The position numbers and the translations under genes are program-made. Shown one piece after another: positions 15,180 to 28,957 of a stretch of DNA of 29,590 nt. Source of the stretch: a virus; the IMG/VR virus record IMGVR_UViG_3300009705_000076, positions 1-29,590 of that record. The stretch is one strand, 5' to 3'. The notes under the pieces were generated by a model. That model saw only the letters and a program-made list of their open reading frames with translations, was not told the DNA's origin and did not search any database. Position 1 is the stretch's first letter. Each line of letters opens with the position of its first letter.

Positions 15180-15256
15180 TACTTAGTTTCTTTTTTATGA
15201 GAACCATCACAAGTACCATCCTCTGATTTAGTTTTACCACATGCACATTTTGCCAT
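15179..15256 (-). CDS. 25-aa CDGSH-like iron-sulphur microprotein
   Basis: ATG at 15256 shares a base with the holin's TAA (TAATG), and its own TAA overlaps the next ATG. The 25-aa product contains C4-A-C6-G-K-T9, then an acidic spacer, then C16-D-G-S-H20 and a lysine-rich tail. The CDGSH family [2Fe-2S] motif is C-x-C-x2-(S/T)-x3-P-x-C-D-G-(S/A/T)-H. All four ligands (Cys4, Cys6, Cys16, His20) are in the right order, with one extra residue in the spacer and no proline. This is almost only the motif, far smaller than mitoNEET-type proteins. Cluster binding, perhaps as a dimer, is inference. Confidence 0.65.
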   Translation of the reverse strand: MAKCACGKTKSEDGTCDGSHKKETK

Positions 15257-15648
15257 TATTTCTTTGCTTTTTCTAGTGAACGTCCACCGAAGTAGGCACC
15301 TATCACTGTTATTAATACTAATTGTAGTAAGTCAGTCCATTTAGCTTCTACTACAAAATTTATTACTCCTGCATCAATGAATATTAATAATACCGTAGAT
15401 ATTACTAAAAAGATTAATACTAAGGGTCTTACATTTTTACTTAACCAAGAGTCAGATTTCATATCTGCTTGCCATCTTGAACTTATTTCTTTCTCCATCT
15501 GAACTTCATAACTAGCTATAAGCTCTTTTACTTTTAACTCTGCCGCTAACTTCTCTTCTTTAGATGTATGTAAATTATCTATAACTCCACCTACACCTTT
15601 AATAAGTTCAGTAGCACCACTGCTAAATATTTGAGTTAAAATACTCAC
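15256..15648 (-). CDS. Holin, GTA/3TM-type
   Basis: A 130-aa protein with the arrangement of the 3TM holin family (gene-transfer-agent-type). It has an N-terminal amphipathic part (ILTQIFSSGATELIKGVGGV), a charged coiled helix (EEKLAAELKVKELIASYEVQ), then WLSKNVRPLVLIFLVISTVL and a second hydrophobic helix (LLQLVLITVIGAYFGGRS) ending in a basic tail. Holins of this kind form inner-membrane lesions that release the phage lysin. The start is GTG at 15648, overlapping the upstream stop as TAGTG. No endolysin is recognised in this window. Confidence 0.82.
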   Translation of the reverse strand: MSILTQIFSSGATELIKGVGGVIDNLHTSKEEKLAAELKVKELIASYEVQMEKEISSRWQADMKSDSWLSKNVRPLVLIFLVISTVLLIFIDAGVINFVVEAKWTDLLQLVLITVIGAYFGGRSLEKAKK

Positions 15649-16520: not shown

Positions 16521-17600
16521 TTAGAATATTATATAGTTAACTCCAAATTTAAAGTCATACCATTCTCTATCCCAGTACTTGTTATATTTCCCTTCTACAA
16601 ATGCGCCAAGATTTTTGGTTATCTTGTATCCAAATATTACACCTCCTGAATAATCTAACCATTGCTTATTGTCATTGAACTTATGATAAGAGAAGTCCCC
16701 TCCATCATCATAATGCCAAGGTAATACATTTCCCCATGCATGCATCCACACATCTTTCTTATATTTATAATAATCAAATCCTATTACTAATGATTGAGCC
16801 CATTGAGTAGGTAACTTATTTCTCTCTGACTCAACATAATCTACCAATACCTCTGGGATTATCACAGCTTCCCACACTTCACTACTAGTTGCAACAATGT
16901 TCCCACCGGGATCACTATATTCATTTGCATATACATTGACGTTATATCCCTCTTCTATAGCTAAATACGTATAATGAATTCCTCCATTAGATAATAACCA
17001 TTCTTCCAAAGGATCATATCCGTATGGCTCAGAAAGTCTTTGTGCTGCCCCTATGTTAAAAGAGAGAGTCTTTGTCACATTATACTTATACCTTTCTGAT
17101 GATTCAAAATACTTAATATCAGCAAAACCATTCTCAAGATACTCGCCTTTAATCATCCAATGATTCAAACAAAGACTCTTGCCACACCCATCATCAGCAA
17201 CATATCTTATCATGTGATGTTGATCAAAGTAGTCTTCTCCTTCTTGTCGTCTTAGGTCTACCTCAAATAAATATTCCCATTTATTCTTTAATCTACCAAT
17301 TGTAGCTGCATCATTGAAGGACGTTTCTGTTCCGTCTTTGAAGTTTGATTTTGGTTCGTATTGGAATCTCTGTATCTTTCTTACACCAAACGTTACTGTA
17401 TAATCATGGGGAGTTTTTACCACATTGGTTTGCAATAGACCTGTATTAACAGAGAATTCATTCTGATCGGATATAGATGTTCCTCCATTGACTGAAGTAT
17501 AAAATGTAGAATACTTAAAGAAATCTTTAAACATCTCTTGTGCATTAACATTTATTGTTAATAAAATAAATACTGTAATTAATATCCTTATCACTATCAT
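16521..17600 (-). CDS. Signal-peptide protein, probable outer-membrane beta-barrel
   Basis: A 359-aa protein with a hydrophobic N-terminal signal peptide (residues 1-20, likely cut at A20-Q21, ..NVNAQ, a common Bacteroidetes cleavage context). The mature part is rich in Tyr, Trp, Lys and Asp with alternating hydrophobic strands, for example HDYTVTFGVRKI, KWEYLFEVDLRR, TLSFNIGAAQRL and QWLDYSGGVIFGYKI. It ends KFGVNYIIF, with the terminal phenylalanine typical of barrels inserted by the BAM machinery. A phage gene for an exported barrel could change the host surface, for example to block superinfection, or serve release. Barrel topology is predicted by eye only. It lies 3 nt after the giant adhesin gene. 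Confidence 0.68.
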   Translation of the reverse strand: MIVIRILITVFILLTINVNAQEMFKDFFKYSTFYTSVNGGTSISDQNEFSVNTGLLQTNVVKTPHDYTVTFGVRKIQRFQYEPKSNFKDGTETSFNDAATIGRLKNKWEYLFEVDLRRQEGEDYFDQHHMIRYVADDGCGKSLCLNHWMIKGEYLENGFADIKYFESSERYKYNVTKTLSFNIGAAQRLSEPYGYDPLEEWLLSNGGIHYTYLAIEEGYNVNVYANEYSDPGGNIVATSSEVWEAVIIPEVLVDYVESERNKLPTQWAQSLVIGFDYYKYKKDVWMHAWGNVLPWHYDDGGDFSYHKFNDNKQWLDYSGGVIFGYKITKNLGAFVEGKYNKYWDREWYDFKFGVNYIIF

Positions 17601-17602
17601 AA

Positions 17603-20600
17603 TTATAATGTTCTTACTGTTTCATTCATAACTCTATACATTGACAATCTTTGTCCATCACTTATTTCTACTTCTTTCCAGAACATGAAGTCAAATAACC
17701 ATCCAAACATAAATACAGTACCTGCACCTAATAGATGGGTAATTTCACCATCTGTAATACTATTATGTATTCCTACTAGACTCTGATCAACAAATACACC
17801 ACCATCTATTCCTACTTTCATATCACCATTACTCATTCTCACTACAGTAAATATATATGTATCAGTATAAGTTATACCAGGAGAAGGCACTGCAAAGTCC
17901 ATTGTAATTCCTCCACCTAACTTTACACTAAATACATCAGGAGCGGTCATTCTAACAAAAGTATCTGCATTGCTTGAACCCATAAAATACCCAGGTAAAT
18001 CATTTACTTCTAGTCTAGTTCTAAACATTAAAGTAAATCCACCTGAATTAATTGCTTCATTAATTGTAGCTATCTGTATAGGGTTAGAACCACGCTTACC
18101 ATATAATTTTAGTTGTTTGTCACCTTTTCCATAGACTCCATTAATTAATGGTGTAATAGTTCCATCACCTTCATACATAGGTTTAGATGCTAAAGTTGTT
18201 TGAGCACCATATATACCTTTATTTGAATAACATTCCCATATGGCAAGTTTATCTCCTATCTCTAAAGAATTACCTTGCATATAATCAGCTCTTTGAATGA
18301 CAGCATCAGTAATACTATAATCAGCAAGCATTTTTGTACCAGCCCTTAACCATAATACTAAACCAGGTATATCAATAGGTTGACCTGCATTTACTGGATC
18401 TATATCAGTAGTATCAAGTGTAACTCCACCATACTTTATAACTGGTAAACGTCTTGGTCCACGATCTGTTATTATTTCAGAATCCATATCTGTATAGAAG
18501 GTTACATTATCAGCTTGAGCATATGGTGAACCTGTACTTTTTAAAGTCCCCATATTATCATTAGACATTGGATCAAAATAAGCTCCATTTGAATATACTT
18601 CTTTTATCTCATCTTCAAGTAATTCAGTATTCCAAGTCATAAATTGACTAAAATTAGCTTTAGTAGTAAAATTATTTCTAGAACTATCTCCTATATTTAA
18701 TGTATAATTACTATCTCTTCTTACACCTCCTCCTGGAGCAGTTGCAGGTTGAGTGCCAGTCATATTAACACCATCTATATATATTTCTAATCCTGATCCA
18801 TGTATATCAGCCATTGTAACACTAACATGTTTCCATTTACCTACTAGAGCTGCACAACTAGCTTCACCAAGCCAAGCAAGACTAGATATTGATCTTCTAT
18901 AGTTTCCTATATAAGCTCTAGGGGAATCACCAAATACATCCCAATATAATTTTCCAAAGTCTGCTGAAGCTGGTTGACCATTTATTAATAATCTAAATGC
19001 AACATCTTCATTATCTAAAGGAATATTCAAACCTTTTTCAAATAAACAACCATCTGGTGTAGCTCCCGCCTCATAAATACAGTCATTAAGCCTAACCCAA
19101 AAAGCTGCAGTAAATCCTCCATGTCCAGGATTAATAGTTTCAGCAGTCTGAACAGCAATATGAGTTAAATCTTGTCCATCAAACGCTGTTGACTTAAATG
19201 CATCTCCACACCCAGGTGGTAATTGATCAGGTATATTAAGAGCGGTAGTTCCATACTTAGCCTCCATCTCTATAAGTTCATCTGCTACTTGATATTTATC
19301 AAAAGAACAATTATATGCTCTTACTTCACTAAACCATCCTTGACCAGGTTTAAAGTTATCAAGACCTCTATTTCTAGTATTAATATTAGCAAGTATCATA
19401 TCCAAGTCTACTCCTTTAATAGTATCTTTAAATTGCATAGCATGACCAACACCCCATATAACATCAAACAAATCATTACCATATGGAAATTGTTCTGTAG
19501 CTACTATCCAATGTAGATACCATACCCCTCCCTTCAATGTTCTATATCCAGTATTATTTATCTCATTTAGTGGGGAAGACTCATAATAACTACTAGGTGT
19601 AACTTCTTCAGCATGATTATGACCATAATAATTACTCTTACAATATGGTTGTCCATGTGGTTTTAGACCAGAAGCATTTGAGTTTTCCTCATTATTGCTT
19701 ACTGTCCAGTCATCACCCATAAACCATGTTTTACTATTTACCCATTCATCAGTTGTTGTTGTACGATGAAAGAATACTGACCATCCTTTACCATAAGTTG
19801 CAGGTATAAGAGTTGTATCTGGTTCTAACCTTGGTGGATTAGGTCCATCAGGATTAGCAATAAGATACTGACATCTAGGATCTGCCTTACAAGTAAAATT
19901 TATAGCATGAAAAGGAAAACTTATAGTATCGTATTTTGGAGCAGTTATTATAAGATTATCAATAGTATCCCATGTATAATATGCAGTTAAATCTAAAGGT
20001 AGACCAATACCATTATATGCTTTATTTTGTATTCGTTCTATAGGTGTAAGTCCTGACAGACTTGGAGGACCTTGAAGTGTAACACTTGTCATATCAGTTG
20101 CATCTAACCATAATACTAAACATGACTTACGTCCTGCAGGATCAATCGGTGGACAACCTTTTGTACATTCACAACAAATACATTCCCATTTTAATTCTGC
20201 TTTTCCTTGACCATAATAAGCCCACAATTTAGCCTCTACATCACTATATACATCAGTTGCAACAAAACCTAAACCAGCAATAGCCATTCCATCAACTATA
20301 AAGGAATCCCATGTAAGATATGATACTGCAAATCCTACTAATGAAGCTCCATTACCTGGATTATATGGTATGATTGGTCCCATAGCAACTTGAGCAGATC
20401 CTAGTAAATCTGATATACCTGGACAATCTGTATTATTTTGTAAATCACAAAACTCATTGCCATTAGGACCCCCCGCTATATAATATGAGGTAGTAGTTAC
20501 ATCTACTAAAGGTGTATTGTAGGATATGGCCTCTTTTAAGTGTTCACAATTGAGAAATGGAATCCAACCCCATGTAAGTGTTGTATCTTCACAACTATTT

Positions 20601-23600
20601 ATTGGTAATACTGACTGTTCACAATCAAACTGACTAAGATGTGTTCCTCCAGCTATCTGTATACACCCTCCATCTGGTTGACATTCCCATGGAAGACCTC
20701 CACCACAAGAGACGCAACCACATTGCATAGAAGCTGTGTAACACCTGTGACAACATTCATGTAATCCTTGTGGGTCACAACCATTACAACCAGGATTATA
20801 AAATTGTGATACAATACCAGCACACCCTGATGAATGACCCCATACATCTTCAAAGGTATTATTTAGTGTTACCGGTACACCTTGAGCTTGTAAAGCAATA
20901 ATACAATCCTCCCAAGAGGTAAAATATCCTCCAGTAACACCAGGAATATCCGTACAATTTGGATTAGTTGCGCTATGAGTAAATGGTTGATAAGTTGGTC
21001 CTCTCCAATAAGAACATCCTGTTACTGGATCACTCGGACACGCATGAGGACCAGTTTGAGGACACTGTGATGGAGTATTATTAATCCAAGTAAATTCATC
21101 ATCATTTAAAGTAGTAAAATCTGGAACATGTGTATTATCTGTTGTATCAGCTACTAATGCAGCTCCAGAACTTGTATATGTTCCTATAACCAGTCCTCCA
21201 ATTGGCTGAGGACAATTAGTATAACCAGGAGATGCTTGACAAAGAGCTGCAGTTGCATATGGTCCAGTTCCATTCCCTGGGTCAACACAAGTACCACCTG
21301 CTGTACAAACCCAAGATTCTTTATTTCTATCATCACAACAATCCTCTTGACAATCTGCCAATGCTGTAGCGCCTGAGTATGTTCCTGTTCCATCACCCGG
21401 ATCATAACAATCACATGTTTTTGGATCACACTCATAAGTTACATTATCACAAGATGGTTCACAATAACAAAATGCATTATTAATACAAGATGATACACCT
21501 CTGTCACACATAACATCATAAGGTCCTAGCCAAGGATTTGGAGGGCATGCCTCATTAGTCCATTCAATACCATCACATGCACAAGGTAGAGTTTGACACA
21601 CAATATATCCTCCTTTTAGAGTACCATTTGAAGTAAAAATGAGATTATATATTTGAGCAAAAGTCATTGAGGGACTAGCACCAGAAATATTAAATAGAGT
21701 TGTAGTGTTTAACCAATCACAAATATATTGTACTCCTAAACTTGAACTCAACTGTATTGCACCAGTCACGTTATATACGTGGAAAGCATTATTTATCGTC
21801 CAACAACCACCACTTGGTGAAGTACAAGTATTAGTAGTACCTGCTAGCATACAATTAGCATCATCATACATACCAGCAAATAGAAAAGGTTGAGTAGGAT
21901 CCAATAAACGTGAATAATCCCATATGTCATCACAACTATTAATAACTTGACCATTATCAGCATATCCATTTTGTAAACAACTATTTAACCCATGACACCA
22001 ATCCATTTGAGCTGGATTTGTAATTTGCCATGACCTTATATCTCCATTGAAATTCCCAGCACCATTTGCACCACTATTCCAAGGTGTATTCATTCCAAGA
22101 GTTAGATTAACACCTCCAGCAATTGCATCTGAAAGAATTTCATCCCAATTCCAAGATTGTATATTACCAAACCCATCATTTCCATACCAACCTTGATAAT
22201 CAGCATTAGGTCCAAGAAAAGGAATATAAACTACACCTGTATCATAACTAGCTGGAGAGGAATTATTAAGACAACAATAAACTACATTAGATGCTCCAGC
22301 AATTTGATTAGGATCCCAGTATGGCATAGTGAAATTCATATCCTCAATATAAGTCATTATAGTTGCTCCTGCACCACTACCAACACTATTTGGTCCAGGA
22401 CAACAAGTTTGATTAGCAGGTAAATTAACACAAGGATTCCAAGGCAATGTTGTAAGAGATACCTCAAAGAAAAGAGTAGCAGCATCTGTACCACTTATTC
22501 CATTAGCAGGATCTGTATAATAATTATTTGCACCAGAGACATTACTAAAAATTACACCAGGTGCACCGTTTACTCTTGCTGTTGGTCCTATTCCATTAAC
22601 ATCACATGAACTGTTTGAACCAGTAGCTAAAGCAGCAAGACAATCAGCTTCATTTAGATACTGACCACTTCCATCTGTAGGATCAGCACAGTAACTACCA
22701 GCAGCACCTTCATAACATTCCCAACTAGCTCCTGGTCCTGAACCACAACCACTACATTCACATGGTTCTCCTATTGCATCAAGTGTTATATCACATATTC
22801 CATCATTAATACAATTACATAAAAACATTGGTGATGCTACATGACCATAACCAGCGGTCGTATATCCTTGTGCCGCTTTCCATTCTTGCCCTAAATCCCA
22901 TATATTCATCCCTGAAATACAAGCAGGACAAGGATTAAGAGTACCTGGAGGACTTTGTGCTAGAGCAATAAGACCATTCATAGTAGTTGACCCTATATCT
23001 ATTATGGTTGTTGTTTGGGTAAGTTGATACTTAGAATGCCAAACCATTGGACCTCCATCAGGTCCAGGAGCACATCCTGTGTTTGGATCATATGGATGGA
23101 CAGATTGTTCATACTGATAATTACTAATATCCTGAGCTGGATGGTTATCAGACATATATTGTAAATGATCCATCCAATTAGAAACCTGAAAGGTATTTGT
23201 TCTATTAGCACAAGTATTAAAAGTACCTGTACAATAACATGGTAAAAGACTTGGTGCCATATGATTAGTTGTACCTTGACCTAAAAAAGTAGAATACAAA
23301 GCACTAACCTGATTCCAAGTCATACCACAAGAGTATCCACCTCCACCATTAGCATTCATCCAAGTTATAACAGCTGCAGCATTAGAAGTAATTGTTTGAA
23401 TTACACTATAAGCCTTATCATAAATTATTACTGAGTACATAGTAGTATAAACACCTCCATTAGGTCCTATACAATCATCAATACTTGGTGGTAGTGTCAT
23501 GTCTTCATAGAAGTAATCACCAAAAGGAACTCCATTTGCACAATTAGTAGTTGAATGCCAAGTAAACTGATCCTGTGCTGTACCTGAAACTGATGAATCC

Positions 23601-24592
23601 CAACCTTGACAACCACCTGCTTCTGCACATAAACATAGAGATAGTTCTGCCGTAATTTGAGCAAATGTCATACCTGTATTTACACTTCCCGCACATCCGT
23701 TTGCATTTGCCCAAACTACTAAATCATTATAGCTAGCAAAACCTGGACCTATTTGAACAGCTCCAGATGTAAGATCACTAATTGTTAGTGTATTATATGA
23801 ATATAGGTATCCTCCATTTGGTCCATAACAACATTCAGCTTCAAGAACCGTACATATACAAGGAACCCCTCTAACGTGTAATGTAGAACCTCCTCCTTCA
23901 GCGGTTTGCCATATACCCTTCAGCTGTATGTAACCCATACCTACTGTTGCTGATGGAGCACCATTAGCATTCATATAAGTTACTAAATCATTAATACTAG
24001 TAGATGTATATGCATTTGTACCACTACTATCCCATATCTGAATCTGACTTATTATATTTTGTATATAACCATCAGGTCCATAGCAGTCCATTCCAGTATA
24101 ATACCCAGTCATAGGCGCCTGATATATATCTTCATAGTATGTTGCACCAAAAGCAGTACCTGGTAGGAATAAAGAAAGATAATCAATATGTTGTATGAAT
24201 GAACCAACTACATTTGTATTAATTAAACTAGGTGTACAAGTGCTATGATTAGATGATGGACATGGACCATTAAACTCAAAAAAGTAATTAGCAATAGGAT
24301 CATTTGGATGATTTGCAAAATACCAATCCCAAAAAACTGTTGGGTTATTAGTAAAGATTCCACTATCAACTCCACCAGAAGTTAAACAACTATTTACAAG
24401 GGGATTTGCTAAACACTCTGCCAAAGTATCATATTGTCCTCCAATTTGTGCTTCACAATCTCCATCAATGCATTCAAAACAATTCTCTGTACACGGTGCT
24501 TCATCACATCTAACTTCAATATGACGTGCTTTAGCACCTACAATCTTGCATTTATTTATTCTTCCTAAGTCTACATATGATGCATTTGACAT
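17603..24592 (-). CDS. Giant Cys-rich modular adhesin / tail-fibre protein with three ConA-like domains
   Basis: A 2329-aa protein without a signal peptide. Residues 30-1450 are Cys-rich and repetitive. One unit has C-(I/V)GPNGG, strands, W-x-NANG, GMTxxQ and a closing CxC, seen near 169, 252, 374, 510 and 925. A second unit is C-x(5-8)-C-x-DPGDGTGxY-x(5)-DC-x-C, near 35, 624, 1051, 1094 and 1304. The C-terminal 840 residues hold three concanavalin/LamG-like regions, about 1489-1770 (LVLWLDATDM), 1790-2050 (GGFTAAFWVRLND, IYIDGVNMTG) and 2075-2329 (LVLWLRAG, MKVGIDGGVFVDQ). ConA-like domains commonly bind glycans or proteins, so receptor binding is the best guess. Tail fibre or capsid spike cannot be separated. 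Confidence 0.8.
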   Translation of the reverse strand: MSNASYVDLGRINKCKIVGAKARHIEVRCDEAPCTENCFECIDGDCEAQIGGQYDTLAECLANPLVNSCLTSGGVDSGIFTNNPTVFWDWYFANHPNDPIANYFFEFNGPCPSSNHSTCTPSLINTNVVGSFIQHIDYLSLFLPGTAFGATYYEDIYQAPMTGYYTGMDCYGPDGYIQNIISQIQIWDSSGTNAYTSTSINDLVTYMNANGAPSATVGMGYIQLKGIWQTAEGGGSTLHVRGVPCICTVLEAECCYGPNGGYLYSYNTLTISDLTSGAVQIGPGFASYNDLVVWANANGCAGSVNTGMTFAQITAELSLCLCAEAGGCQGWDSSVSGTAQDQFTWHSTTNCANGVPFGDYFYEDMTLPPSIDDCIGPNGGVYTTMYSVIIYDKAYSVIQTITSNAAAVITWMNANGGGGYSCGMTWNQVSALYSTFLGQGTTNHMAPSLLPCYCTGTFNTCANRTNTFQVSNWMDHLQYMSDNHPAQDISNYQYEQSVHPYDPNTGCAPGPDGGPMVWHSKYQLTQTTTIIDIGSTTMNGLIALAQSPPGTLNPCPACISGMNIWDLGQEWKAAQGYTTAGYGHVASPMFLCNCINDGICDITLDAIGEPCECSGCGSGPGASWECYEGAAGSYCADPTDGSGQYLNEADCLAALATGSNSSCDVNGIGPTARVNGAPGVIFSNVSGANNYYTDPANGISGTDAATLFFEVSLTTLPWNPCVNLPANQTCCPGPNSVGSGAGATIMTYIEDMNFTMPYWDPNQIAGASNVVYCCLNNSSPASYDTGVVYIPFLGPNADYQGWYGNDGFGNIQSWNWDEILSDAIAGGVNLTLGMNTPWNSGANGAGNFNGDIRSWQITNPAQMDWCHGLNSCLQNGYADNGQVINSCDDIWDYSRLLDPTQPFLFAGMYDDANCMLAGTTNTCTSPSGGCWTINNAFHVYNVTGAIQLSSSLGVQYICDWLNTTTLFNISGASPSMTFAQIYNLIFTSNGTLKGGYIVCQTLPCACDGIEWTNEACPPNPWLGPYDVMCDRGVSSCINNAFCYCEPSCDNVTYECDPKTCDCYDPGDGTGTYSGATALADCQEDCCDDRNKESWVCTAGGTCVDPGNGTGPYATAALCQASPGYTNCPQPIGGLVIGTYTSSGAALVADTTDNTHVPDFTTLNDDEFTWINNTPSQCPQTGPHACPSDPVTGCSYWRGPTYQPFTHSATNPNCTDIPGVTGGYFTSWEDCIIALQAQGVPVTLNNTFEDVWGHSSGCAGIVSQFYNPGCNGCDPQGLHECCHRCYTASMQCGCVSCGGGLPWECQPDGGCIQIAGGTHLSQFDCEQSVLPINSCEDTTLTWGWIPFLNCEHLKEAISYNTPLVDVTTTSYYIAGGPNGNEFCDLQNNTDCPGISDLLGSAQVAMGPIIPYNPGNGASLVGFAVSYLTWDSFIVDGMAIAGLGFVATDVYSDVEAKLWAYYGQGKAELKWECICCECTKGCPPIDPAGRKSCLVLWLDATDMTSVTLQGPPSLSGLTPIERIQNKAYNGIGLPLDLTAYYTWDTIDNLIITAPKYDTISFPFHAINFTCKADPRCQYLIANPDGPNPPRLEPDTTLIPATYGKGWSVFFHRTTTTDEWVNSKTWFMGDDWTVSNNEENSNASGLKPHGQPYCKSNYYGHNHAEEVTPSSYYESSPLNEINNTGYRTLKGGVWYLHWIVATEQFPYGNDLFDVIWGVGHAMQFKDTIKGVDLDMILANINTRNRGLDNFKPGQGWFSEVRAYNCSFDKYQVADELIEMEAKYGTTALNIPDQLPPGCGDAFKSTAFDGQDLTHIAVQTAETINPGHGGFTAAFWVRLNDCIYEAGATPDGCLFEKGLNIPLDNEDVAFRLLINGQPASADFGKLYWDVFGDSPRAYIGNYRRSISSLAWLGEASCAALVGKWKHVSVTMADIHGSGLEIYIDGVNMTGTQPATAPGGGVRRDSNYTLNIGDSSRNNFTTKANFSQFMTWNTELLEDEIKEVYSNGAYFDPMSNDNMGTLKSTGSPYAQADNVTFYTDMDSEIITDRGPRRLPVIKYGGVTLDTTDIDPVNAGQPIDIPGLVLWLRAGTKMLADYSITDAVIQRADYMQGNSLEIGDKLAIWECYSNKGIYGAQTTLASKPMYEGDGTITPLINGVYGKGDKQLKLYGKRGSNPIQIATINEAINSGGFTLMFRTRLEVNDLPGYFMGSSNADTFVRMTAPDVFSVKLGGGITMDFAVPSPGITYTDTYIFTVVRMSNGDMKVGIDGGVFVDQSLVGIHNSITDGEITHLLGAGTVFMFGWLFDFMFWKEVEISDGQRLSMYRVMNETVRTL

Positions 24593-24596
24593 AACT

Positions 24597-26987
24597 TTAT
24601 TGTTTTATTACTTTATCAATTGTTCCATCATCATAGATGTACAACATTATTTGTTTAGTTTGATCTTTTATTTCTCTCCCTAATAGATCAGTAATCATTA
24701 TTAACTTTTTACTTTGTTCAATTACTCTACTAGCTATAGGTCCTGTCCAGGTTCCTTCACAGTAATCATAAGTTAATTGACATATATTATCCCATTCATT
24801 ATCACAACAGTACTCATCAACTTCTATAACCCAAGCATAACAAAGATCATTTAACCAATAAGGTATCCCATCACCTGTTATACATCCTGCACTATAAAGA
24901 CAAGATGCTGAGTCAGATACATTTGCTAAGTCATCATAGTTGTACGCAATCGGATCCATACATCCCTCAATAGCAGTAATACAAGTATTATTGCTTGTAT
25001 TAGCCATTGGGCTATAATTGAGAGCAGTGCTATCCATGCAACCATAAATATAAGCAATACAAGAGAAATCTTCTGTATTGGCAGAGGCATTGAAGTTAAG
25101 AGCGGAAGGATCAGTGCACCCATAAGTAATAGGAACACAAGTATTATTATCAGCATTGGCTAAAGGATTAAAGTTAAACATTGTGGAATCAGTACATCCA
25201 TAGATAAATGGAATACATGAACCATCATTAGTATTTGCAATAGAATCATAATTAAATTGAGTTGGATTTATACACCCATAGATCACAGGTATACATGAGT
25301 TATCGTCACAGTTGGCTAATGGTGCAAAGTTAAATGCAGCTGTATCAGTACATCCATAAACAATACCTATACAACTATTATCATCTACATTTGCTAATGA
25401 ATCATAGTTTAAAGCTATTGAACTCATACATCCATATACTATAGCAATACAAGTATCTGGTGTATTAGCTAGCGGTTCAAAGTTGAATGCCAAAGGTTGC
25501 ATACATCCTAATATCACTGGTATACAAGCAGTATTTACATTAGCTGTTGAGTCATAGTTAAATGCTGTAGAATCCATACACGCAAATACAGCTACTGTAT
25601 CACAACTCCCATCATCTATATCAGCAATAAAACCTTGAGTATGATATGTTAAGTAATAAGGAAACATGCATCCTGGATTATAATAACAAGTGTTTGCAAC
25701 ATTTGCATAGGCGTTATAGTTATAAGCTGTGCTATCTGTACATCCTATTACTACTGGCTCACATTCAACACCACAGCTAGTCATTGCTGTATAAAGATTA
25801 AAAGGGAGTATTGGACCAGAATAACTAAATCCACCAGGTACATACAAAGTTGTATCTCCTGAAGAACTAACTAATGAGAAGCCGCATTCTACAACCGTGG
25901 CACTAGCATTAGGATCTAGAAGAATAAACTCAGCTGTTACTAGCTTAGGAGATGTTAACATTAAATAAAATGTTTCAGTATAACCAGAATCTAAAACATA
26001 TGATAATGTATCATCACAGTGGTAAATATTTAAAACACTACCCACCCATCCGTTACTCTGATAATCATATAAAGTTAATGTATATAAACAACTATCAACA
26101 TAATCCATAGTGTTTGCAGTGGAATCATAGTTAAACATTGTACTATCAGTACATCCATAAATTTTTAAAGTAACACAACTAGTATCCGCTACAGTTGCTA
26201 ATGGATTATATTCTATATAATTTACATCCATACAACCAGGTACTGGTGGTGGAGGAACACATGTATCTGAAGTAAACACGTGAGTAGTATCATGTCCAAA
26301 TGCTGGATCTGTTCCATATATCAATGTATCTCCACACTGTGTAAGATAATATGAACCATCTTGTCCCTGCCATAATGAACCTTGCAATCCGTCACCATAT
26401 GAATCATATATGGTTAAACTTATTTCTCCTACAGGTAGGCAGATATTCTCAAATTGTGGTTGATAACCCGGTGCTTGTCCGTAAGGTCCACCTGCAAATA
26501 ACAAACTACCTGTAGAGTCATGTATCTCCCAAGTAGTCTCTGGTGTAAATTGATCTAAGTTTATATTAAGTACTGCTGGCACACACGGTCCTGTTGGAGG
26601 CCCGGTAGGCATACAAGCTGGTACAGTTCTATTAGAGAAAGTACCAGTATTAAAAGAAGGAGTAGGATAACTTATTATTGTATCTGCACATATAGATACG
26701 TAATAACTACCATCCATACCATCCCCGTAGGAATCATATATAACAAAGGTAATGTCAGTTATAGTATCAGAAATATATAATGTATCTGTATATATTGTAT
26801 TAGGTGTATTGTAGTGTCCGTAGTTAACATCACCTATAATAAAACCATTCAAACTATCAACGTGCAATACCCATCTAGTCTCAGCAGGATAATTATCTGT
26901 AGTTATATGAACGATAACCTCCTTAATAGGAGTGTACTGTCCAAAACCTAATATAGGTAGTAATAATAGTAGTAATAATTTTTTCAT
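24597..26987 (-). CDS. Secreted Cys-repeat protein with T9SS-like C-terminal tail
   Basis: A 796-aa protein with a signal peptide (MKKLLLLLLLPILGFGQ, cut before or at Q17). Residues 80-335 hold three modules with YDSYGDG-type turns, common in marine Bacteroidetes surface proteins. From about 251 to 696 there are about 13 units of the form GC(T/M)D-x-x-A-x-N-(Y/F)-x(3)-AN-x(4-5)-C, of about 25-45 residues, some degenerate. A W/C-rich segment follows (CYAWVIEVDEYCCDNEWDNI). The C-terminal 44 residues contain KLIMITDLLGREIKDQT and LYIYDDGTIDKVIKQ, closely resembling T9SS C-terminal sorting domains. This predicts Sec export to the periplasm, then T9SS secretion to the host surface. It lies 4 nt before the giant adhesin. 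Confidence 0.85.
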   Translation of the reverse strand: MKKLLLLLLLPILGFGQYTPIKEVIVHITTDNYPAETRWVLHVDSLNGFIIGDVNYGHYNTPNTIYTDTLYISDTITDITFVIYDSYGDGMDGSYYVSICADTIISYPTPSFNTGTFSNRTVPACMPTGPPTGPCVPAVLNINLDQFTPETTWEIHDSTGSLLFAGGPYGQAPGYQPQFENICLPVGEISLTIYDSYGDGLQGSLWQGQDGSYYLTQCGDTLIYGTDPAFGHDTTHVFTSDTCVPPPPVPGCMDVNYIEYNPLATVADTSCVTLKIYGCTDSTMFNYDSTANTMDYVDSCLYTLTLYDYQSNGWVGSVLNIYHCDDTLSYVLDSGYTETFYLMLTSPKLVTAEFILLDPNASATVVECGFSLVSSSGDTTLYVPGGFSYSGPILPFNLYTAMTSCGVECEPVVIGCTDSTAYNYNAYANVANTCYYNPGCMFPYYLTYHTQGFIADIDDGSCDTVAVFACMDSTAFNYDSTANVNTACIPVILGCMQPLAFNFEPLANTPDTCIAIVYGCMSSIALNYDSLANVDDNSCIGIVYGCTDTAAFNFAPLANCDDNSCIPVIYGCINPTQFNYDSIANTNDGSCIPFIYGCTDSTMFNFNPLANADNNTCVPITYGCTDPSALNFNASANTEDFSCIAYIYGCMDSTALNYSPMANTSNNTCITAIEGCMDPIAYNYDDLANVSDSASCLYSAGCITGDGIPYWLNDLCYAWVIEVDEYCCDNEWDNICQLTYDYCEGTWTGPIASRVIEQSKKLIMITDLLGREIKDQTKQIMLYIYDDGTIDKVIKQ
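24897..26235 (-). repeat. Tandem degenerate GCTD/NYDxxAN coding repeats
   Basis: About 13 coding repeats of roughly 75 nt (longer where interrupted) inside the secreted-protein gene. Each starts with Gly-Cys, carries an N-(Y/F) pair and an AN pair, and ends in Cys. The middle eight, about 24,970-25,600, are the most regular, separated by hydrophobic linkers such as IPVIYGC and IPFIYGC. Copies are diverged at the base level, so recent slippage is not evident, but recombination between copies could change repeat number. Confidence 0.75.
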
Positions 26988-26991
26988 TTTT

Positions 26992-27672
26992 TTATTGTGT
27001 TACTATTTCTTGTTGTAGTCTTTTAACAATGTTTCTTCTTTTTCTTTGCATATCCATTTTTCCTTCTGGTTTTCTCCATGTATCAAGAGAATGTGGTTCA
27101 TGTAATAATATAGTTTTATTATTTACAGTATATGTAAAGAAATGTTCAAAGTTCACTAGTGAAACATCCGTATCTATTATACTAATTAATTTATCACTTG
27201 TTTTTAATCCTCCTGGAGCAAACTTTAAGTCATTCCATACAGTAAGTAACTCCTGTACAACTCTTGAATTAGGTGTAGATCCTTGGATCCCACATTCAAT
27301 TAGTGCTCCTCTTGTATCTACCTTAGCTCTCATTCCAGCAAAATATGTAATATTTTCACTTAACCTATCCATAATATTATCAAATGATCTTATTATCTCA
27401 CAGTCCGGATCAACTGCAATACCACCATAGTCTCTTAATAATAACATTCTAAATCTATCTGTAACATAGGCTAATGGAAAGTTCTTCCCTGCATAAGCTG
27501 CTATATAAGGATCTTTAGAATATTTCTTCCATATTTCATTACCCCATAAGTAATGTTTATAACCTTTCTCTTCATGTACTTCTTTCATCTTATCTGTAAA
27601 TCCTTTAAACTTACTAGGAATCTCTTTACCTATCCAGATCTGATGTATTATTTTTGGTATTTTTGTCTTCAT
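26992..27672 (-). CDS. Glycosyltransferase, GT32/OCH1-like (DXD sugar transferase)
   Basis: A 226-aa protein with the typical start IPKIIHQIWIGKEIPSKF, a YKHYLWGNE strand, then AYVTDRFRMLLLRDYGGIAV and DPD at 88-90. This is the RxxxLxxxGGxxxDxD core of the Gly_transf_sug (GT32) group, which uses a nucleotide-sugar and a metal ion bound by the DxD motif. The length is about normal for a single catalytic domain. No membrane segment is present. In this operon it could glycosylate the neighbouring surface proteins or host glycans; the acceptor and sugar are unknown. It starts 5 nt after the thioredoxin-like gene. Confidence 0.85.
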   Translation of the reverse strand: MKTKIPKIIHQIWIGKEIPSKFKGFTDKMKEVHEEKGYKHYLWGNEIWKKYSKDPYIAAYAGKNFPLAYVTDRFRMLLLRDYGGIAVDPDCEIIRSFDNIMDRLSENITYFAGMRAKVDTRGALIECGIQGSTPNSRVVQELLTVWNDLKFAPGGLKTSDKLISIIDTDVSLVNFEHFFTYTVNNKTILLHEPHSLDTWRKPEGKMDMQRKRRNIVKRLQQEIVTQ

Positions 27673-27676
27673 TGGT

Positions 27677-28051
27677 TTAAAAGTCTTCCATTAATAAGTC
27701 ATCTATATAATCCTGCATTTCTTTTCTTGTAGCCTTCATACTAAAAGATATGTCAGCTTTAAATCTTTTTCTTTCTTCTCCATCTTTAAATATAACAACT
27801 GTTGGGACTACTGATATATCATGTTTGGCTTGTAACTTTGGTGATGCAGCTATATCAACATAAACTATATCACAATCTGTTAGTTCACCAATGTATTCAA
27901 CCTTATTAGGATTATTCCATGCAGCATTAAAGTGTGTTACTACAACATTTTGTCCAATAGCCATTCCACTAAGCAACATTAAACCAAGTAACACAAGATA
28001 AATTACAAATATTTTCCAACTAATATCTTTATCTGTATCTAAGTGTTTCAT
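27677..28051 (-). CDS. Membrane-anchored thioredoxin-like protein without CxxC
   Basis: A 124-aa protein. Residues 12-33 form a hydrophobic anchor or uncleaved signal (SWKIFVIYLVLLGLMLLSGM). The rest has the thioredoxin order: VVVTHFNAAW, then a helix, DCDIVYVDIAAS, HDISVVPTVVIFKDGEERK with the cis-Pro at about 83, and a C-terminal helix. At the active-site position the usual WCGPC reads W45-N-N-P-N, so both redox cysteines are missing. It therefore probably acts as a binding or scaffold protein, not a disulphide enzyme, with the soluble domain likely on the periplasmic side. It is joined to the upstream gene by ATGA. Confidence 0.75.
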   Translation of the reverse strand: MKHLDTDKDISWKIFVIYLVLLGLMLLSGMAIGQNVVVTHFNAAWNNPNKVEYIGELTDCDIVYVDIAASPKLQAKHDISVVPTVVIFKDGEERKRFKADISFSMKATRKEMQDYIDDLLMEDF

Positions 28052-28329
28052 CTTAATCTATCTATTTTATCCTCCATTCTTTTTAGGTCTTCTTTAATTT
28101 CATTAACAGCATCTTCTGTATGTTCAATTGATTGTCTTATGTTTTTGTCTTTCATATCAAATTCCATTCTAGATACATCGTTTGTATGTTTTGGTAATTC
28201 TTTAGCTTCCTCAATATCAGCTTGCAGCATAAACCACATACTAATAACCGTAGCCATAGCAGCACCAATTGCTATTAAAGTTTTAACACTTACTTGAAAT
28301 CCTGAATTTTCATTTAATTCTTTTGCCAT
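28048..28329 (-). CDS. Membrane protein with C-terminal coiled coil
   Basis: From ATG 28329 the product is 93 aa. A longer TTG-started frame exists, but it lies inside the upstream gene, so I use the ATG, which is one base after the upstream stop. A transmembrane helix spans about residues 15-35 (TLIAIGAAMATVISMWFML), followed by a charged helix ending in heptads (AVNEIKEDLKRMEDKIDRLR). Such a one-TM plus coiled-coil layout occurs in small phage spanin- or holin-like proteins and also in unknown proteins. I do not assign a function. Confidence 0.6.
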   Translation of the reverse strand: MAKELNENSGFQVSVKTLIAIGAAMATVISMWFMLQADIEEAKELPKHTNDVSRMEFDMKDKNIRQSIEHTEDAVNEIKEDLKRMEDKIDRLR

Positions 28330-28330
28330 T

Positions 28331-28957
28331 TTATTCTGTATTTCCTTTTGCTTTATTTGGAGTCCCAGATAGAACTCTTCCAACTTTCATACTTATTGAG
28401 TTAATTGATGCACTAGTTTCTCCAGCTCCATGTACTACTTCTGGTTCATGTGAAACAGCTTCAATAGTATCTTTCTCATCATAATATTGTGACCATTGTT
28501 CTAACCATATTGATATAACAAATCCATCTAGAGATGTGTGTGATTGAAACTGAATAATATCTTGTAAATTATTTAACTTCAAAGGTGACTCACTTCCAAG
28601 CAATGCTACACGCTCACCATCACTAAGAGTTAAATTATCACAAAGTGTCATCTCCGCTGGAACTGATACAAATGATGGAACTTCACCATTAAATGTAGCA
28701 GTGGTTATAGCTGAATTATATATTCTCATAGAAAAAACCTTATTATTAGTTTCACCTATTGAGTTATTTTGTATATATATTTGTTTAATGTAAAATGGTG
28801 GTCTCTTCTGAGCTTCTCTAAAGTCATCAACTCTAGTATCATATCTTAATGCTGGGTAACTTTCATAGACTGTATCCCAAGTATTTAATGACGGAGTGTC
28901 AATTCTATTTCTTCCTCCCCATATGGCTGCTGCATTAGTATTAAGGGTGCTTGTCAT
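28331..28957 (-). CDS. Hypothetical late protein (208 aa), possible virion protein
   Basis: I do not recognise the family. It begins MTSTLNTNAAAIWGG and contains PFYIKQIYIQNNSIGETNNK, SMRIYNSAITTATFNG, NLTLSDGERVALLGSES, a strand-rich FVISIWLEQW and an acidic-polar C-terminus. The strand-heavy pattern and lack of signal peptide or Cys suit a phage structural or accessory virion protein. It lies within 2 nt of its neighbours on both sides, so it is clearly part of the operon. Confidence 0.65.
   Translation of the reverse strand: MTSTLNTNAAAIWGGRNRIDTPSLNTWDTVYESYPALRYDTRVDDFREAQKRPPFYIKQIYIQNNSIGETNNKVFSMRIYNSAITTATFNGEVPSFVSVPAEMTLCDNLTLSDGERVALLGSESPLKLNNLQDIIQFQSHTSLDGFVISIWLEQWSQYYDEKDTIEAVSHEPEVVHGAGETSASINSISMKVGRVLSGTPNKAKGNTE

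Follow-up and report, generated by a model that had tools for sequence, protein, structure and literature searches.

A phage protein family with exchangeable short and full-length T9SS-type C-terminal tails is encoded in a conserved four-gene module

The window analysed here, an IMG/VR virus record taken at its full length of 29590 bases, encodes a 796-residue protein, F1 (24597..26987; all window features described below lie on the minus strand), that is likely to be a phage-encoded cargo exported by the type IX secretion system (T9SS) of its host. F1 belongs to a family in which the putative sorting signal is swapped repeatedly between a short C-terminal tail and a full-length one, and its gene lies in a conserved set of four genes, referred to as F1 to F4 herein. 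As far as our searches of the open-licence PMC literature reach, the widespread conserved family, the four-gene module, and the short tail together with its recurrent replacement by a full-length one are new.

The F1 open reading frame begins MKKLLLLLLLPILGFGQ and ends TDLLGREIKDQTKQIMLYIYDDGTIDKVIKQ. The original prediction described a secreted phage protein with Cys repeats, and each of these elements was recovered. The Sec signal peptide (26940..26987) reads MKKLLLLLLLPILGFG, with predicted cleavage before Q17. Using a crude rule, we found a hydrophobic N-terminus in 77 of 77 scored F1 starts and an SPI-like site in 74, while the same rule found this N-terminus mostly absent from structural and RNR control families. 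A few F1 proteins have a lipobox-like N-terminal LxxC..CC.Q, hinting at a lipoprotein form. After the signal peptide come two beta domains, each marked by (I/V)YDSYGDG (26268..26930), modelled by AlphaFold2 with pLDDT values mostly of 70-90 over residues 20-240; a fold search gave only weak C2/galectin-like matches, which were not used, and no convincing PDB match for these N-terminal domains. The Cys-rich region (24894..26237), defined by sequence and alignment, consists of about nine GCxDxxAxNYxxxANxDDxSC repeats whose Cys and Gly columns are conserved (alignment A1); residues 437-731 have pLDDT values below 50, and the model gives the repeats no confidence. A CCxNxWDxxC..YxxC segment lies between the repeats and the 45-residue tail (24600..24731). 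The phage context is clear, as the record carries genes for a Sak4 annealase, primase, RusA, exonuclease VIII, DNA polymerase and holin. Since phage replication functions are numerous in the record, a holin is present as well, and relatives of F1 are spread across many viral contigs, a host or binning artefact was ruled out.

The claim that the C-terminus of F1 is T9SS-like had been tied to a match with curated sorting-domain models, and here the outcome was divided. Neither the tail nor whole F1 matched any NCBIfam model at E-values up to 10, TIGR04183 and the type B sorting domain TIGR04131 included, and Pfam, with PF18962 included, gave no T9SS match for F1 at E up to 1 and no match to any family for the isolated tail at E up to 10. 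Taken alone, and by the yardstick set with the original prediction, this result would refute it. In contrast, a hidden Markov model built from bacterial tails only matched the C-terminus of F1 far above chance, with 57.4 bits (E=8.2e-18), while the next best of the 184 open reading frames in the window reached 11.4 bits. Internal matches of the tail model within F1 were inspected and found to be spurious; with these removed, all matches in the viral loci examined lie in F1 or its split-off end. AlphaFold2 predicts three beta strands in the tail (residues 762-766, 780-785 and 790-794; pLDDT 75-86). In alignments A2 and A6 motif B has an invariant Gly, mostly followed by Arg or Lys, and the Lys/Arg-rich end corresponds to the basic motif E; the motif D region reads LLFYIY and lacks the Gly before Tyr. 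Profile-profile comparison of short and canonical tails with hhalign failed to link them (probability 5% over 15 columns), and a claim of homology between the two was therefore dropped. The miss by the curated models is nonetheless outweighed, and the T9SS-like reading of the tail well supported, by the bacterial tail model, the use of the tail in host bacteria, its interchange with type A domains in F1 homologues, and a predicted fold like that of Prevotella short tails.

The short tail is found at the very C-terminus of diverse signal-peptide-bearing bacterial proteins, whose Pfam domains include esterases, LRR, M43 peptidases, arylsulfotransferases and Kelch repeats. Nearly all of the genomes that carry it are titled marine or uncultured Flavobacteriales, Cryomorphaceae or Crocinitomicaceae, and marine Flavobacteriales are apparently the hosts of these viruses. 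The tail was present in 81 of 246 Flavobacteriales genomes, many with 20 to at least 29 tail-bearing proteins each. SprA was found in 77 of these 81 genomes, and TIGR04183 cargo in all 81, including the four without a SprA match. No tail was found in the 42 genomes lacking TIGR04183 cargo (Fisher p=9.5e-9, a value inflated by relatedness), an association confounded by the many T9SS-less genomes of about 600 kb, which are probably those of reduced symbionts. Within a secreted esterase-like host family, 47 members have the short tail and 10 the canonical one; this ratio carries little meaning because sequence length partly guided the sampling, but the coexistence of the two types is independent of that choice, and one genome, G299, holds both within the family. 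Across loci L112 and L321-L368 and the tail-bearing genomes, the tail missed by curated models marks dozens of secreted proteins per genome. T9SS cargo counts in streamlined marine Flavobacteriales are probably underestimates.

Among the viruses, a tblastn-confirmed scan identified 152 relatives of F1, and 80 of the loci were fetched. In these, 57 tails are short, 19 are canonical YPNP-type full type A domains, and four are cut by contig ends. A canonical tail reads, for example, IYPNPTSDKVNI..VFNILGDMVI..LDVTxLSPGTYNLQIIYNGKIINKRIIKK. The curated models that miss the window tail do recognise tails of F1 homologues, with TIGR04183 matching 15 of 42 scanned F1 proteins (best 4.7e-13) and PF18962 all 14 of the canonical tails compared with it. 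On a tree of F1 bodies built with the tail removed, the tail type switches at least eight times, all forced by well-supported branches, and the nearest relative of the window protein, L077 (71% identical over 678 columns), has a canonical tail. Alternative seeding on F3, which has 570 viral relatives, gave a locus set overlapping the F1-seeded one in some contigs; among its 52 loci with complete F1, the tail is short in 32, canonical in 19 and split off in one. In this last locus (L179:1802-3963) a stop lies just upstream of the tail, which falls in the next open reading frame, reflecting either a sequencing error or a genuine loss of the signal. The putative sorting signal in the F1 family is therefore one that is swapped repeatedly between a short and a full-length tail.

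These swaps bear on the reading of the tail as a folding or assembly domain of a virion or periplasmic protein, in which it would not be an export signal. The gene lies in the late region, curated models miss the tail, and one of the distant matches to the Cys repeats is a gene of Synechococcus phage S-CAM3 that bears the annotation virion structural protein. We nonetheless consider this reading very unlikely, as essentially all F1 proteins have a Sec signal, the short tail has been exchanged with certified type A sorting domains on at least eight occasions, and the identical tail type occurs on dozens of unrelated host proteins. The S-CAM3 match is confined to some 120 residues of the Cys-repeat region (E=4e-3), and an assignment of the F1 repeats as a virion fibre on this basis was rejected.

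Gene clustering across 81 loci, the 80 seeded on F1 plus the window, revealed a co-directional set, absent from the original prediction, comprising F1 (81 loci), F2 (73), F3 (70) and F4 (69). The module was seen in more than 100 viral contigs, in the order F3-F4-F2-F1 or F4-F2-F1-F3, occasionally with interposed genes. Co-inheritance, expressed as Spearman coefficients, was 0.32-0.50 among F2, F3 and F4, and 0.09-0.26 between F1 and these genes. None of 50,697 isolate phage records contained F2, F3 or an F1 matching at length, and among 396 Flavobacteriales genomes F3 was found in two, on contigs that a provirus check showed to be phage-looking in both cases. A phage-like contig binned with genome G126 (L240:1-20000) carries an F1 with a canonical tail and what appears by eye to be a queuosine-type gene cluster.

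F3 (16521..17600; present in 69 of the 80 F1-seeded loci) has a signal peptide, an aromatic C-terminal residue and a predicted 12-strand outer-membrane beta-barrel, modelled by AlphaFold2 with a mean pLDDT of 75.8. Foldseek matched this model to NanC (1.6e-7) and also to porins, FapF and NalP, autotransporter barrels among them, with a probability of about 1. As searches of Pfam and NCBIfam gave no PorP/SprF family match, and the 12-strand model is generic and porin-like, we do not claim F3 as a PorV or SprF. By a crude rule, 17 of 68 F3 proteins have a lipobox-like N-terminal LxxC..CC.Q, suggesting a lipoprotein form; the lipobox-like cases in F3 or F1 include L004:6165-7262, L025:7566-10133 and L044:8001-10340. 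F2 (27677..28051; 72 of 80 loci) combines a signal peptide with a thioredoxin fold, matching Pfam Thioredoxin just below the cut-off (1e-4, 22.7 bits). At the CxxC position its members have a conserved (F/Y)NAxWN (alignment A5), and judging from these sequences F2 is probably a redox-dead periplasmic thioredoxin-fold family in phages. F4 (28048..28329; 68 of 80 loci) is predicted to have a single transmembrane helix and, after it, a charged coiled-coil stretch; its start was set from the family alignment, whereas the open reading frame call starts at 28383, and all 69 members have the hydrophobic segment. A PHROG tape-measure match of F4 (4e-4) probably reflects coiled-coil similarity and was set aside.

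Three neighbouring genes of the window fall outside this set. A glycosyltransferase (26992..27672; PF04488, 6.3e-5), inserted between F2 and F1, was found in one of the 80 related loci and is not a conserved part of the module; it could modify surface glycans. Between F1 and F3 lies a gene for a 2329-residue Cys-rich protein with a laminin-G-like domain (17603..24592; PF13385, 6.9e-9) and without a signal peptide, which is likewise not a conserved part, with a similar match in one of 80 loci, and is probably a virion fibre. The holin, F6 (15256..15648; phrog_3427 lysis, 4.2e-32), is not co-inherited with F1 to F4 (Spearman about 0) and is probably a nearby lysis gene outside the module.

From the signal peptides, tail identity, tail interchange and module conservation computed here, we infer export, the physical assembly of the module and its function. 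F1 would cross into the periplasm via Sec, and its 45-residue tail would be read as a short sorting domain by the host translocon and carrier, so that F1 would be displayed on the infected cell at a late stage. The module would then be layered across the envelope, reaching from F4 in the inner membrane through periplasmic F2 and the outer-membrane barrel F3 to F1 on the outside. The original prediction that a phage diverts the T9SS of its host for its own protein is strengthened by the identity and interchange of the tail; the export step itself is still one that we infer.

Phage-resistant F. columnare carry mutations in sprA, gldM, gldK and gldN, that is, in T9SS and gliding genes (PMC9233685). 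Since flavobacterial phages thus need T9SS function to infect, a phage cargo occupying the surface could mask receptors. Such remodelling might cause the receptors of an infected cell to cease binding incoming or newly released phage, with F1 masking them against other phages or against the loss of progeny to debris. We regard receptor masking as the most likely function of F1, though with considerable doubt. Slightly less tentatively, F4-F2-F1-F3 could be a dedicated envelope machine of Bacteroidota phages that runs from the inner membrane to the cell surface, has its outer part delivered by the host T9SS, serves either in receptor masking or in opening the outer membrane at lysis, and has a sorting signal exchangeable between a minimal and a full-length form, a reading that falls somewhat short of an even chance in our judgement.

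With lysis genes nearby and a layout, F4-F2-F3-F1, that spans the envelope, lysis or egress is the main rival to masking. Here, once holin and endolysin had acted, the module would weaken or breach the outer membrane as spanins do, and F1 could still be exported by the T9SS. A gene for a holin, M15 endolysin or DUF5675 protein occurs in the examined stretch of 62 of the 81 loci, at a median distance of 1.7 kb, and the late position of the module fits that of a lysis module. The gene next to F2 in L240, on its far side, resembles a peptidoglycan-binding endolysin by eye, and the arrangement of F4, one helix and a coiled-coil, is like that of an inner-membrane lysis protein. A diverged F2-F4-F3 set directly followed by an M15 endolysin-like gene (L241:7677-9546), with no F1 detected within the 20 kb examined, points the same way. 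Against this, F1 to F4 are not inherited together with the holin, F2 to F4 have no similarity at a useful E-value to known spanins or holins in PHROGs and Pfam, and a large Cys-rich protein at the surface does not readily suggest a part in lysis. We consider the lysis reading somewhat unlikely in itself, yet it fits about equally well as the block of superinfection or the attachment role originally proposed for F1.

F1 might instead be a host-derived adhesin or fitness factor (moron) through which the infected cell adheres to particles or to neighbouring cells, aiding transmission while leaving receptors unaffected. The repeats, the DSYGDG domains and the tail all resemble parts of host secreted proteins, and similar roles have been proposed for the cargo of Cryophage (Bellas et al., PMC7468147). 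That cargo is variable, however, whereas F1 is nearly constant over many phage backgrounds and is tied to F2-F4, and we judge this alternative unlikely. For F1 as T9SS cargo, the preferred reading, conservation across a large group of uncultured viruses suggests that the T9SS probably belongs to their usual course of infection; phage-borne T9SS cargo was formerly known mainly from one cryoconite phage, as a variable extra. The swaps between a 45-residue tail and a full type A domain, made in a phage protein and in a host enzyme alike, amount to a natural experiment that probes how small a T9SS signal can be, and they indicate that streamlined marine Flavobacteriales hold many cargo proteins yet to be annotated, while F2-F4 provide a defined target for studying how phages handle the Bacteroidota outer membrane.

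Phage T5 encodes Llp, a receptor-blocking lipoprotein, and the receptor masking of infected cells proposed for F1 would resemble its action. We know of no sequence or mechanistic relation between Llp and F1, nor of any use of the T9SS by Llp. As with SprF/PorP, the carriers of type B cargo, the pairing of F3 with F1 places a predicted outer-membrane barrel beside a probable T9SS cargo; unlike that system, F3 is a 12-strand model without a family match and F1 has no type B domain.

The closest counterpart of the tail itself is the short C-terminal domain (CTD) of P. intermedia, which is 43-55 residues long and is cleaved and glycosylated by the T9SS like the long ones (Ye et al. 2025, PMC11969387). 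These short CTDs are predicted to form one three-strand sheet, whose counterparts in long CTDs are strands 3, 6 and 7, were modelled to bind PorV as the long ones do, and were described from what was stated to be the sole species reported with both short and long CTDs (PMC11969387). The F1 tail is similar in its length of about 45 residues, its occurrence on Sec-exported cargo, its three predicted strands, the invariant Gly and basic residue of motif B, the basic motif E, and its coexistence with long CTDs. It differs in motif D, which in P. intermedia is GxYxI with an absolutely conserved Gly and in F1 is LLFYIY; it is found in marine Flavobacteriales and their phages, and it is known from sequence, whereas cleavage and glycosylation are known for the P. 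intermedia CTDs. As the motif D Gly is absent and no profile links the tail to canonical ones, we describe it as probably working like a short CTD and claim no membership of that class. The type A domain of TIGR04183 and PF18962, which occupies the position of the short tail in F1 homologues, spans 72-75 positions, starts with YPNP and has seven strands in solved examples; the window tail is not matched by it.

Sorting-domain proteins in Bacteroidota phages have been reported before. In crAss-like phages, open reading frames with T9SS sorting domains were noted near BACON proteins (de Jonge et al. 2019, PMC6949934), a passing mention that included neither a conserved module nor a short tail. 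Cryophage, from cryoconite, carries three variable T9SS cargo genes that were called a unique occurrence (Bellas et al. 2020, PMC7468147), and these, like F1, are phage genes with T9SS sorting domains that were read as a hijack of host export. The Cryophage cargo consists of endoglucanase, GH39 and PA14 proteins with recognised type A domains, whereas F1 is one conserved family on at least 150 viral contigs, set in a four-gene module and usually bearing a short tail invisible to curated models.
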